A stretch of 64,000 nt of DNA from positions 1,240,001-1,304,000 of the forward strand of contig NZ_JGVU02000002.1 in assembly GCF_000708755.2 (NCBI RefSeq), read 5' to 3'. How positions within the stretch are numbered: position 1 is the first letter of the stretch; each line of letters begins with the position of its first letter. This DNA is from Metabacillus indicus LMG 22858. Lineage in GTDB: Bacteria > Bacillota > Bacilli > Bacillales > Bacillaceae. The position numbers and the translations under genes are program-made. A model generated the notes under the pieces. It was given only the letters and a program-made list of their open reading frames with translations, was not told the origin of the DNA and made no database searches. This document shows, in pieces, positions 2,004 through 44,191 of this stretch.

Positions 2004-2293
2004 ACGAAAAGCGGAGCCTTCCGTTTAGCTCCGGGAGTCAGATAAGAAATCACCCAAAAAGGCCGGTTTTGCCTTTTTGGGTGATTTTGTTCTGGCAGAG
2101 GAGTTGGAAGGCGCAGCTGGACACCACGAAAAGCGGAGCCGACTGTTCAGCCCTGACAGGCAGAAAAGAAATCACCGGAAAAGTCCGGTTTTGACTTTTT
2201 CGGGGATTTTGTTCTGACGGAAGGGCTAGGAGGCGGAGCTGGACACAACGAAAAGCGGAATCGCCCGGTTAGCTCCGGGAGTCAGATAAGGAA
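2004..2293 (+). repeat. 122-bp tandem structured repeat, array 1 (two full units and a 5' partial)
   Basis: Units begin with ACGAAAAGCGGA at 2004, 2126 and 2248, an exact 122-bp period; the third stops near 2293. In unit 1 a perfect 17-bp stem around a short loop (centred near 2067) is extended outward by GTCAGA/TCTGGC, GCTCC/GGAGT and GCCTTCC (2016-2022)/GGAAGGC (2106-2112). Unit 2 keeps the same layout with different bases (GCCCT/AGGGC). The array fills the gap between the tRNA and the convergent 2372-2620 gene. Related to the array at 28192-28702. Confidence 0.93.
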
Positions 2294-2340
2294 ACAACGA
2301 AACGGCTGTTCAACCTTTGCACAGGCCCCTTAACACAAAA

Positions 2341-26835: not shown

Positions 26836-28131
26836 TCAGCTGCTTTCTCCATCTACAAGGTTCGGCTCAGGCATTTTTTTCTGTCCGTTAACCTCTTTTT
26901 TATCGATGGGTTCATTTGTTTCAGGCAGTGAAACCTTCCTTATGAAAAAATAAATACAGCTGTGTCCTGCCCCTATGATAGCAAGCAGAAAAGGAATGCT
27001 CTGTTTTTCATTAAACAGCGTGACAGAAAGAATAAACAGGAGGATTGACGTAATTCTCCCCATGTTTAAAAACAGTTCTCTGACGACAATGTATTCGATC
27101 CTTGCTTCTCCTGCATTCCATGACCGCCCAATCACATCGTAAGTCAATGAAATGTAGGGAACGAGCAGAAGCGGATAGGCGACCGCAATAGAAATCGCAT
27201 AGATGATGAGCTTTGTGTAGGTCAGATCAAAAAGAAGCAGGAAAATGGAAGCATAAAGCAGAATTCCCCCTGCCAGGATAAACTTCTTTCTCATTTTCTT
27301 CGTAATCATCCTTGTGGCCAGATAATAAAAAACAAAAGCAACCGCAGAGTTAATCAGCCCATATTTCCCCAGAGCAAGTTCGCTGCCGGTCGTGATAAAA
27401 ACAAGGACTCCAATGACAAAAATAAACGTACCTTCCCTGAGCCCCTGAAAGAAATGAGCGTTCGTAATCATACGCCAGTTCATGTTCCGCTTTCTTTCTT
27501 TTAAAACATCCATAAGCAGAAAACGCCCGTTCGCATGCCTTCTTTTCAAGAAGAGACTTAGAATCACTGCACAAAAAAACAGGGCAAGCGACAGGGAAAA
27601 GATTGTTTTGTATCCCGTGTCTCCTGCAAGCCTTGAGATGACAAAACCGGCGACAATCGGGCCGATCATTCCAGCAGAGGAAGTCATGACCCCTAAAAAT
27701 CCGTTAAAAAAGTCCCTTGTCTCAGGTTCTGTAATTTCAAATGTCAGTACATTAAAGGAAAGCCAGTAAAAACCTGAGCCTATCCCAAGAAGACCTCCAA
27801 GCAAAATCAAATTATCTGCTGCCCTGTCCCCAATTAAGAGAACGGACAGATAAAATACAGCCAGAAAGGCAACACCAAGACGAAACACAATCACCCGGTC
27901 AATTTTTTTCGCCCATCTCCCGGCAATAATAAATGTAATGGGCTGCATGATCACAATCGTCAGATTATAGATCCCTAAATCCAAAAAACTGCCGGACTGC
28001 TTCCACAAATACACATTAACAAAAGCATTCGAGAGGGCAATCCCTAAAGAATACATGCCCCCAATCGTCAGAAGCAGAAGCAAATCGCGGTTCACTTCCA
28101 CATTACCAAAGACTTTCTGCAGCTTAGACAT
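26836..28131 (-). CDS. yqgE: MFS transporter YqgE-like
   Basis: 431-aa major facilitator protein with about 12 hydrophobic segments and a cytosolic basic loop near the middle (LFLKRRHANGRFLLMDVLKERKRNMNWR). The A-motif-like segment after helix 2 reads AGRWAKKIDRVIVFRLG. Substrate unknown. Position between pbpA and sodA matches B. subtilis yqgE. GGGGAG precedes the ATG. A 122-bp repeat array begins 60 bases upstream of the start. Confidence 0.86.
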   Translation of the reverse strand: MSKLQKVFGNVEVNRDLLLLLTIGGMYSLGIALSNAFVNVYLWKQSGSFLDLGIYNLTIVIMQPITFIIAGRWAKKIDRVIVFRLGVAFLAVFYLSVLLIGDRAADNLILLGGLLGIGSGFYWLSFNVLTFEITEPETRDFFNGFLGVMTSSAGMIGPIVAGFVISRLAGDTGYKTIFSLSLALFFCAVILSLFLKRRHANGRFLLMDVLKERKRNMNWRMITNAHFFQGLREGTFIFVIGVLVFITTGSELALGKYGLINSAVAFVFYYLATRMITKKMRKKFILAGGILLYASIFLLLFDLTYTKLIIYAISIAVAYPLLLVPYISLTYDVIGRSWNAGEARIEYIVVRELFLNMGRITSILLFILSVTLFNEKQSIPFLLAIIGAGHSCIYFFIRKVSLPETNEPIDKKEVNGQKKMPEPNLVDGESS

Positions 28132-28191: not shown

Positions 28192-28702
28192 AAGAAAAGC
28201 GGAATCAGCCGTTTAGCTCCGATAGGCAGATAAGAAATCACCCGAAAAGTCCGCTTTTGACTTTTTGGGGGATTTTGTTCTGACAGAGGAGTTGGCTGAT
28301 GGAGCTGGACACCACGAAAAGCGGAATCGCCCGGTTAGCTCCGAAGGACAGAAAAGGATCCGACGGAAAAAGCCGGGTTTGCTTTTTGCGGCGGAGCCGT
28401 TCTGGCCGAGGAGTTGGGCGATGGAGCTGGACAATACGAAAAGCAGAGCCTTTCGTTTAGCCCTGACAGGCAGAAAAGAAATCACCCAAAAAGTCCGGGT
28501 TTGACTTTTTGGGGGATTTTGTTCTGACGGAAGGGTGGGAGGCGGAGCTGGACAATGAGAAAAGCGGAATCATCCGTTTAGCTCCGGGAGTCAGATAAGG
28601 AAGCGGCGGAAAAGGCGCTTTATGCCTTTTTTGACGATTCCGTTCTGGCAGAGGAGTTGGCTGATGGAGCTGGACAACACGAAAAGCGGAATCAGCCGTT
28701 TA
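28192..28702 (+). repeat. 122-bp tandem structured repeat, array 2 (four full units and a 5' partial)
   Basis: Units begin at 28192, 28314, 28436, 28557 and 28679 (steps 122, 122, 121, 122); the last stops near 28702. They share with array 1 the start GAAAAGCGGA, the GCTCC or GCCCT arm, a central hairpin and the end GGAGCTGGACA. Outer 7-base arms pair perfectly but differ between units: ATCAGCC (28204-28210)/GGCTGAT (28294-28300) and ATCGCCC (28326-28332)/GGGCGAT (28416-28422). Unit 4 has one mismatch. The array fills most of the 637-base yqgE-sodA gap. Confidence 0.94.
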
Positions 28703-28726: not shown

Positions 28727-28760
28727 AAAAAAACAGGAAATCCAAGATTTCCTGTTTTTT
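28727..28760 (-). terminator. Terminator of sodA
   Basis: AAAAAACAGGAAATC/GATTTCCTGTTTTTT around CAA, just after the sodA stop. Confidence 0.93.
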
Positions 28761-28768
28761 CACGTCTA

Positions 28769-29377
28769 TTATTTAGCTTCTTCGTAGCGTCTGTTTACTT
28801 CTTCCCAGTTTACAACGTTCCAGAAAGCTCCGATGTAGTCAGGACGGCGGTTTTGGTAGTTCAGGTAGTAAGCATGCTCCCAGACATCAAGACCAAGGAT
28901 CGGCGTTTTGCCTTCCATTAAAGGAGAGTCCTGGTTTGGAGTGCTTGTTACTTCAAGCTCGCCATTGTTTACAACAAGCCATGCCCAGCCAGATCCAAAG
29001 CGTGTAGCGCCAGCTTTAGCGAATTCTTCTTTGAATGTTTCAAAGCTTCCGAATTTGCTGTTGATTTTGTCAGCAAGTTCTCCTGATGGAGCTCCGCCGC
29101 CGTTTGGTGAAAGGATTGTCCAGAACAGGCTGTGGTTCGCATGGCCGCCGCCGTTGTTGCGTACAGCTGTGCGCGCTGATTCAGGCACTGCGTCAAGATT
29201 TGAAACAAGTTCTTCAACACTTTTGCTGAGAAGATCGTCATGACCTTCTAGAGCAGCATTCACGTTCGTGATGTATGTGTTATGGTGTTTCGTGTGGTGA
29301 ATATTCATTGTTTCCTTATCGATATGCGGTTCAAGTGCATCATATGCGTAAGGCAGTTGCGGTAGTTCGTAAGCCAT
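28769..29377 (-). CDS. sodA: Superoxide dismutase, Mn type
   Basis: 202 aa. Metal ligands: His27 in [12 protein letters not shown], His in [11 protein letters not shown], and the Asp/His pair in [25 protein letters not shown] and Gln in [13 protein letters not shown] fit manganese-preferring enzymes. Cytosolic, removes superoxide. AAGGAGGAG precedes the ATG, and a terminator follows directly, so the gene is monocistronic. Confidence 0.97.
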
Positions 29378-43459: not shown

Positions 43460-44191
43460 ATGTTTCAGCAAAGACCAATGCCCCAAATGCCTTCAAGAGG
43501 TATGCAGCCCCAGAGAATGCAAATGGGCGCACAGCGGTTTTCGGGGCAGCCTATTGGATATCAGCAAGCAAGAGGATTAGGCTCATCCAGGTTTCAGCCT
43601 TTCGGACCGCAGATGGGATCATTTGGACCGCAGTTTGGCGGACCGGGTTTTGGAGGTCCTGGTTTTGGAGGTGCCGGGTTTGGCGGACCGGGATTCGGGG
43701 GACAGGGATTCGGAGGAGCAGGATTTGGCGCACAGCAATTCGGACAGCAGGCAATCGGAAAAAGCGGAGGGCTAAAAGGTCTTTTATCGAGATTTTTGCC
43801 GGGCGGCGGAGGCCAGGGACTTACAGGTGCGGCGAATGCAGCGCAGGGCCTTCAGGGACTCACAAATCCAGCCAATCTTTCAGGCATGCTTGGAAACGTT
43901 CAGAAAGTGCTGGGCATGGCACAGCAGGTCACTCCAATGGTTCAGCAGTACGGGCCTTTGGTACGAAACCTTCCGGCTATGATTAAAATTTACAGCGAAC
44001 TTAAAGGCGGAGGCTCAAGCGACGACGGCGAAAGCACAGAAACAGCTGAAACTCAGCCTGCCGCAATCCAGACTGAGGCCGTTTCAACCGAAACATCAGA
44101 GCAAGAAACTTCAGCTGAAGTAAAACAGGCTGCAGTGAAAGAAAAAACACCTGCAGTCAAAGGCGCTTCTGCTCCAAAGCTGTATATCTGA
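43460..44191 (+). CDS. yqfQ: YqfQ/VrrA-like glycine-rich protein
   Basis: 243 aa. An N-terminal Gln/Met/Pro-rich part ([20 protein letters not shown]) is followed by a run of [10 protein letters not shown] and GFGGQ pentapeptides (43629-43740; 15-bp DNA unit), a helical centre, and a Glu/Thr/Ala-rich tail. VrrA of B. anthracis, its relative, is known for a length-variable repeat. YqfQ is regarded as a spore-associated protein; this role is from knowledge, not sequence. AAAGGAGGG before the ATG. Confidence 0.85.

Follow-up and report, generated by a model that had tools for sequence, protein, structure and literature searches.

Many bacterial genomes are full of small palindromic repeats, often with no known agent of movement. 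Y1 transposases typically show a polarity relative to the replication fork and act on folded single strands, and folded single strands also recombine at the attC sites of integrons. Several described families offer themselves for comparison. In the sections of PMC3733652 that treat them, MITEs have terminal inverted repeats of 15-30 bp, and GTAG or CGTC tags at the repeat end mark elements of the REP/RAYT type. As excerpted from Cozzuto et al. 2008 (PMC2267715), the MITE bcr1 of the B. cereus group is 147-167 bp long and is called mobile in the title of a work cited there, while Bhal-1 is a family of 36 copies of 74 bp. In their table, Weinberg et al. (2010; PMC2864571) class Bacillaceae-1 as 'certainly' RNA and as probably not cis-regulatory.

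The family described here came to light as a tandem array of 122-bp units in a 64-kb window, a term that denotes the whole stretch of DNA analysed. A literature search, which included unit strings in full text and had subscription journals outside its scope, returned no paper naming it among the hits listed. We consider the chances about even that the units are a non-autonomous family of mobile hairpins, perhaps spread as single strands at replication forks. With some 80 sites, a close genome whose sites are partly different and a strong fork polarity, the question of what moves such repeats becomes testable.

The array and its family

Tandem Repeats Finder, applied to the 64-kb window, places an array with a period of 122 and 4.2 copies at 28192-28702 (array B). 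The preliminary description had seen five starts at a step of 121-122 bp, the fifth truncated, and the array indeed consists of four full units of 121-122 bp each and a 24-nt start of a fifth (Table 1). It sits 60 nt upstream of the start of one flanking gene, whose product, judging by its sequence, we take to be an MFS type membrane transporter; that of the other flanking gene is presumably superoxide dismutase-like (sodA-like). Elsewhere in the window, positions 43633-43751 hold a nested tandem repeat of 15/30/45 bp.

Table 1. Positions of the units, their neighbours and related copies (window coordinates unless a locus or contig is given)
Feature	Position	Strand	Remarks
Unit B1	28192..28313	+	R1 match of 137.8 bits, R1 itself being built partly from B1
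Outer arms of B1	28204-28210 / 28294-28300	+	hairpin of the whole unit z -5.7
Unit B2	28314..28435	+	R1 match; 97.5% identical to first unit of the orthologous G004 array
Unit B3	28436..28556	+	R1 match; 94.3% identical to second unit of the orthologous G004 array
Unit B4	28557..28678	+	R1 match; one outer-arm pair broken; nothing closely similar in the G004 array
Partial fifth unit, right border of array B	28679..28702	+	first 24 nt of a unit
tRNA gene left of array A	1931-2002
Unit A1 (array A)	2004..2125	+	R1 match of 141 bits; starts one base past the tRNA gene
Unit A2 (array A)	2126..2247	+	R1 match
Partial third unit of array A, about 48 nt	2248..2295	+	from border reading
Terminator-like hairpin with T-run	28728..28760	-	read from sequence; 3' of the sodA-like gene, adjoins right border of array B
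Flanking gene, presumably superoxide dismutase-like	28769..29377	-	ORF of 202 aa
Flanking gene, presumably membrane transporter	26836..28131	-	ORF of 431 aa; relatives compared
Distant units in the sodA-like/transporter gap	L141 9812-9938; L142 9565-9938		model match
Second-type copies, examples	G000:C2:1687960; C22:184652; C2:756349

A covariance model, R1, was built from the six full units of the window and run on the genome that contains it (G000, here the home genome) and on related genomes, as the preliminary description had proposed. The family proves to be dispersed and multi-copy. The home genome has at least 123 matches at E<=0.01, with 150 of 1006 candidates scored, and leaving out 11 of the 123 that score below 59 bits gives 112 units. 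These lie at 78 places, as 57 single, 11 double, 7 triple and 3 quadruple copies, and none of the 78 clusters mixes strands; the assembly is in 22 contigs, some of them ending inside repeats, and identical units may be collapsed in these counts. With 89 candidates scored per genome, matches were found in 33 of the 40 genomes searched, the home genome included. The bearers belong to 20 of the 22 genera, spread over several families of this order, and the seven genomes without a match include all five that represent one particular genus of the same family. Five congeners (G001, G002, G004, G005 and G006) have at least 89 matches each. A broader model, R2, run over the phylum with stricter filters and 12 candidates scored per genome, matches 3 of 299 genomes, all of the same order and the home genome among them; plasmid and phage collections gave no match to array B.

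Judged by the neighbouring transporter, the closest named genome is Metabacillus idriensis (88%), although records nearest the window possibly fall outside that search. Neither this species nor two near relatives (L080-L082) have a unit match in the sodA-like/transporter gap, among the 55 of 80 named loci searched. Alkalihalophilus marmarensis and pseudofirmus OF4 (L141, L142), on the other hand, have distant units in the very gap that holds the window array. At a locus of another genus (L068 689-2184), 11 or more units stand in one array, two of them with a Bacillaceae-1 module instead of the unit start.

Pairing and the folding strand

All six full window units fold better than their dinucleotide shuffles, with z-scores of -3.6 to -7.1 and at most 1 of 200 shuffles folding as well in each case. 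The preliminary description had given every unit one long hairpin with an outer arm that always pairs with its partner. The arm pairs it quoted are correct for B1, B2 and A1, and the general rule has to be relaxed for two units: in B4 the outer arm ATCATCC/GGCTGAT contains one broken pair and the fold of lowest energy consists of three hairpins in place of one, and the outer arm of A2 has a G.A/A.G mismatch.

Pairing was then followed in alignments of many copies, both of them fitted to the covariance model, which favours structure, and both made up of related copies that are not independent. Among 111 units of the home genome (109 distinct), 92.4% of cells are paired, and in 27 of 40 pairs both members change. 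The covariation, whose absence from further copies the preliminary description had named as evidence against its idea, is strong, amounting to 449 covarying cells against 151.8 in shuffled alignments and at most 101 with the partners slid. Of six congeners the nearest is G004, at 97% over the transporter locus, and its repeats give the same picture, with 343 cells in 86 units (82 distinct) against 102 shuffled. Sliding the partners by 1-3 columns lowers the paired cells of the two alignments from 92-93% to 33-48%. Pairing is thus kept while sequence varies, as had been proposed. The further claim that pairing is under selection goes beyond this and is unproved, as block exchange between copies also spreads matched arms.

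The pairing is also asymmetric between strands. On the plus strand of the units, that is, the strand on which the hairpin was read, the home copies have 397 G.T cells against 36 A.C cells, a difference that falls to 94 against 35 when four G.T-rich columns are removed, and 218 G.A cells against 19 C.T cells. Folding energies favour this strand over the complementary one in 106 of 109 home units, 82 of 82 in G004 and 34 of 36 from other genera under RNA parameters, and in all 36 of the latter under DNA parameters. One strand is therefore the folding strand, and the excess of G.U over A.C fits RNA and single-stranded DNA alike.

Fork polarity, turnover and borders

The folding strand has a fixed relation to replication in this genus. 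It lies in the lagging sense in 72 of 78 home clusters and in 67 of 73 clusters of G004, where one match on a second contig was left out of the count. The G004 chromosome is a complete-looking contig of 4.11 Mb, and the strand of the element switches at dnaA (C1:1801581). The terminus boundary at 3.9 Mb, about half a chromosome from dnaA, was chosen after the strands had been seen, as was the split of home contig C2 at 550 kb; the home dnaA lies on contig C5. GC skew, taken from the stretches around elements, agrees with the fork assignment over 400 kb of G004 and 454 kb of the home genome, with single 3-kb loci scattering. One G004 unit (C1:1802939-1803060; L307 2859-2980) is situated within the presumed origin region, about 0.9 kb from the match to the DnaA domain. 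IS200/IS605 elements use the template strand usually exposed at forks, and the lagging-sense strand found here is not that strand, a point against the mobile reading.

Flanking genes, called by a simple ORF script, do not explain the polarity, since it holds in 17 of 18 home clusters between convergent genes and 12 of 12 between divergent ones (29 of 30 together), and in 6 of 7 where both flanking genes are on the lagging strand. A leading-sense terminator stands within 160 nt to the right in 27 of 72 clusters and to the left in 3, six clusters being skipped; targeting to terminators was considered and set aside, since the right-side excess follows from sitting antisense between leading-strand genes.

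These flanks bear on the first half of the earlier proposal of a functional RNA or a mobile palindromic element. Were the plus strand transcribed, the hairpin could be a regulator, a processing site or a terminator-like structure, with its compensatory changes selected. The covariation, the G.U bias on one strand and an apical loop that, by eye, is alike across genera are what such an RNA would lead one to expect. So is the company the unit keeps in Rfam. The suggestion that the family may be catalogued in Bacillaceae finds no support in Rfam for the unit itself, which has no gathering-score match in the window, the array or 19 loci of other genera. It gains something from the catalogued Bacillaceae-1 RNA (RF01690), which has seven gathering-score matches in 4 of these 19 loci, its modules lying on the unit's strand and either within a unit, at its start or beside it (L068, L074, L326 and L076). 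A motif marked 'certainly' RNA in the table of PMC2864571 is thus nested within the units. Yet of the 41 clusters with co-directional flanking genes, 31 have both genes on the leading strand and the folding strand antisense to them; the left flanks of home clusters have no promoter-like sequence in common (by eye), about 15 of the 78 lying in another repeat whose flank they have in common; clusters sit between divergent genes (12 of 78) as well as convergent ones (18 of 78); and presence varies between close genomes. We regard a functional RNA as unlikely, and as less likely than a mobile hairpin family, the half of the proposal that fits the dispersal and the site differences.

Outside the genus the picture is mixed. 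With position 0 assumed as the origin, 19 of 22 clusters are polar in G007, of another genus (40 of 49 matches used), and 11 of 15 in G021 (26 of 36 used); the best two-arc fit is equalled in 7 of 200 and 74 of 200 shuffles, respectively. G032, of another family of the order, has no orientation bias (30 of 49; 84 of 85 matches used). If the host kept the units as a signal of chromosome polarity, in the manner of other skewed motifs that indicate which way replication runs, the strong replichore polarity in this genus would follow, but many sites are not common to close genomes, G032 shows no bias and none were found in the five genomes of one same-family genus. Such a role is highly improbable.

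Orientation could also reflect survival, with units landing either way and those whose better-folding strand is the lagging-strand template being deleted or harmful. The weaker-folding strand is indeed the lagging-strand template in the 72 of 78 clusters. A different hairpin repeat of 117 bp offers a comparison. Its family (CGCTCCAG...GGAGTCAAG...CACTGG) has 33 home copies by pattern, e.g. at C2:1311934, and occurs also at L289, L292 and L299; about 15 of the 78 home clusters are nested in or against it, and 13 of its 33 copies hold or touch a 122-bp unit. Its fork orientation is fixed too (30 of 33 copies; 17 of 20 without nested units), yet here it is the complement that forms the better fold, in 8 of 9 plain copies from the home genome and G004 (DNA parameters), the sole exception being a truncated copy of 92 nt. 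Orientation-dependent survival is accordingly improbable as the source of the polarity.

Presence of the element varies between close genomes. In a collinear block of the home genome and G004, in which long alignments are 88-97% identical and mostly 93-96%, nine sites are common to both, 3 of 12 home sites have no intact unit in G004 and 11 of 20 G004 sites have none in the home genome; 27 of 92 weak rows at <=32.4 bits were left out of this comparison. One of the 'empty' sites holds a decayed copy and several hold short remnants, and at most differing sites gain is not distinguishable from loss. Unit number differs at three of the nine shared sites (home/G004: 4/2 in array B, 2/5 in array A and 1/4 at another site) and is equal at the other six. 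In array B, the two G004 units have their orthologs in B2 and B3, and the home genome has B1 and B4 in addition. Array borders can therefore stay fixed while units are gained, lost and exchanged. To the right of the G004 ortholog of array B lies some 550 bp of another tandem repeat (CTTCTTACGCTATCTTGCACC...) that is absent from the window.

The units within arrays are mostly unlike one another. In the home genome the identity of adjacent units is not above random (0.713 against 0.731 permuted). In 18 arrays of G004 it is 0.786 against 0.774, but 31 of 70 units have their nearest relative in the same array, against 3.3 permuted, and 9 of 52 adjacent pairs are at least 95% identical. Part of the growth of arrays is plain local duplication.

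Exchange between copies raises the question of whether covariation needs structural selection at all. Quasipalindrome template switching, which corrects one arm by the other, together with gene conversion between copies, could produce it from DNA processes alone. All four orthologous single copies, which differ by 5-14% and of which two or three sit in another repeat, are closer to another home copy than to their ortholog, as are five units of two equal-length arrays, and the outer arms come as blocks in the list of 112 home copies, both of which suit such an origin. Turnover is not total, since for A1, A2, B2 and B3 the most similar unit is one of G004 and not another home copy. Against an origin in DNA processes alone, one-sided pair changes predominate among near-identical copies in both genomes, with double Watson-Crick-to-Watson-Crick changes making up only 3 of 46 changed pairs in the home genome and 7 of 54 in G004, and symmetric correction would not be expected to favour G.T over A.C and G.A over C.T on one strand. 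We find it quite unlikely that the covariation arose in this way.

The borders of the clusters are one-sided. Partial units occur on the left of 0 of 21 home arrays and 2 of 57 singles and on the right of 15 of 21 and 10 of 57; for arrays in the G004 block the figures are 0 of 8 on the left and 5 of 8 on the right. By eye over the 112 home copies, the unit ends GAAAAGCGGA and AGCTGGACA are not inverted repeats of each other. Comparison of filled and empty sites by eye gave no clear target duplication, the borders often being blurred by remnants, flanking deletions and nested repeats.

A second type of single copy is present 20 times in the home genome and begins with ACAAAAGCG or nearly so. 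Seventeen of the 20 copies go on with a tail that starts GAT, in the best cases GATAACTTTGTTATGTTATCC. The tails contain TTATCCACA, which we take to be the DnaA-box consensus, exactly in 3 of 20 and with at most one mismatch in 6 of 20, against shuffled means of 0.01 and 0.29.

Candidate movers and comparison with known systems

If the units are mobile hairpins, the mobile or copied form would be a folded single strand, more likely of DNA than of RNA. Its entry into the chromosome would take place preferentially at forks, which would give the folding strand its lagging-strand sense, and further units would be added beside existing ones. Pairing would be kept because recognition or protection acts on the folded strand, and block exchange between copies would spread matched arms.

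One candidate for the enzyme, within the mobile reading, is a Y1 transposase of the IS200/IS605 or RAYT type that would act, or would once have acted, on the element in trans. These enzymes typically work on folded single strands and show polarity at forks, and across the 40 genomes Y1 genes are found in 25 of 33 that bear the element against 1 of 7 that do not (p 0.004, relatedness ignored). Five of the six genomes with neither come from one genus, however, and the association may thus be shared ancestry. Moreover, the Y1 model (PF01797) has no match in G001, G002, G004, G005 or G006, all of them rich in the element, although the sites of G004 differ much from those of the home genome. The sole Y1 gene of the home genome (180 aa; L160 1260-2010) lies between GGGGTCAGTCCC/GGGACTGACCCC hairpins unlike the 122-bp units. 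A Y1 enzyme acting in trans is consequently very improbable. The same home gene, with its GGGGTCAGTCCC hairpins, resembles a RAYT with its own REP.

Retrotransposition by template jumping, which would fit the clean start, truncated end and arrays, was rejected, as the home genome and G004 lack the reverse transcriptase domain (PF00078). This domain was likewise without a match in G001, G003, G007 and G012, and over the 40 genomes it is not associated with the element (14 of 33 against 2 of 7).

The mobile reading can also be given a form without an enzyme of its own, in which the element enters the discontinuously synthesised nascent strand at forks, either deposited in the form of folded single strands or by copying. 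Entry of this kind would lead to the lagging sense, a clean 5' border, a truncated 3' border and arrays largely of unlike units, and would account for G004, which has neither a Y1 transposase nor a reverse transcriptase. It is weighed down by the co-occurrence of Y1 genes and the element across the 40 genomes, and we hold it with low confidence, as decidedly unlikely in this specific form. The main results against the inferred mechanism are this Y1 association and the lack of polarity in the distant genome G032.

Set beside the described systems, the family can be likened to REP and MITE repeats, except that its units have no terminal inverted repeats. It resembles REP/RAYT systems, with their Y1 transposases, in being made of intergenic palindromes in many copies and in co-occurring with Y1 over the 40 genomes; it differs in that five congeners have many copies without Y1_Tnp, and in that the home Y1 gene is flanked by different hairpins. 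Like bcr1, which the cited title calls mobile, it is short and intergenic, and it is the lack of terminal inverted repeats in the 122-bp units that separates it from MITEs. Bacillaceae-1 RNA is likewise a hairpin motif of Bacillaceae and lies on the same strand as the units, but it is a two-hairpin motif of 67 nt, and the 122-bp units themselves do not match it. In other genera this catalogued RNA falls inside a presumably mobile repeat, and the RNA status of Bacillaceae-1 and of other families defined by covariation should be checked against single-stranded DNA. The families of Cozzuto et al. 2008, e.g. Bhal-1 and Bant-1, appear in the excerpted text (PMC2267715) as dispersed stem-loops in Bacillus genomes, and a kinship of Bhal-1 with the 122-bp family is possible, the two being set side by side by description. 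As a dispersed palindromic repeat the family is ordinary; it is unusual for its polarity at forks, its one-sided borders, the exchange of its units and the catalogued RNA motif nested in it.
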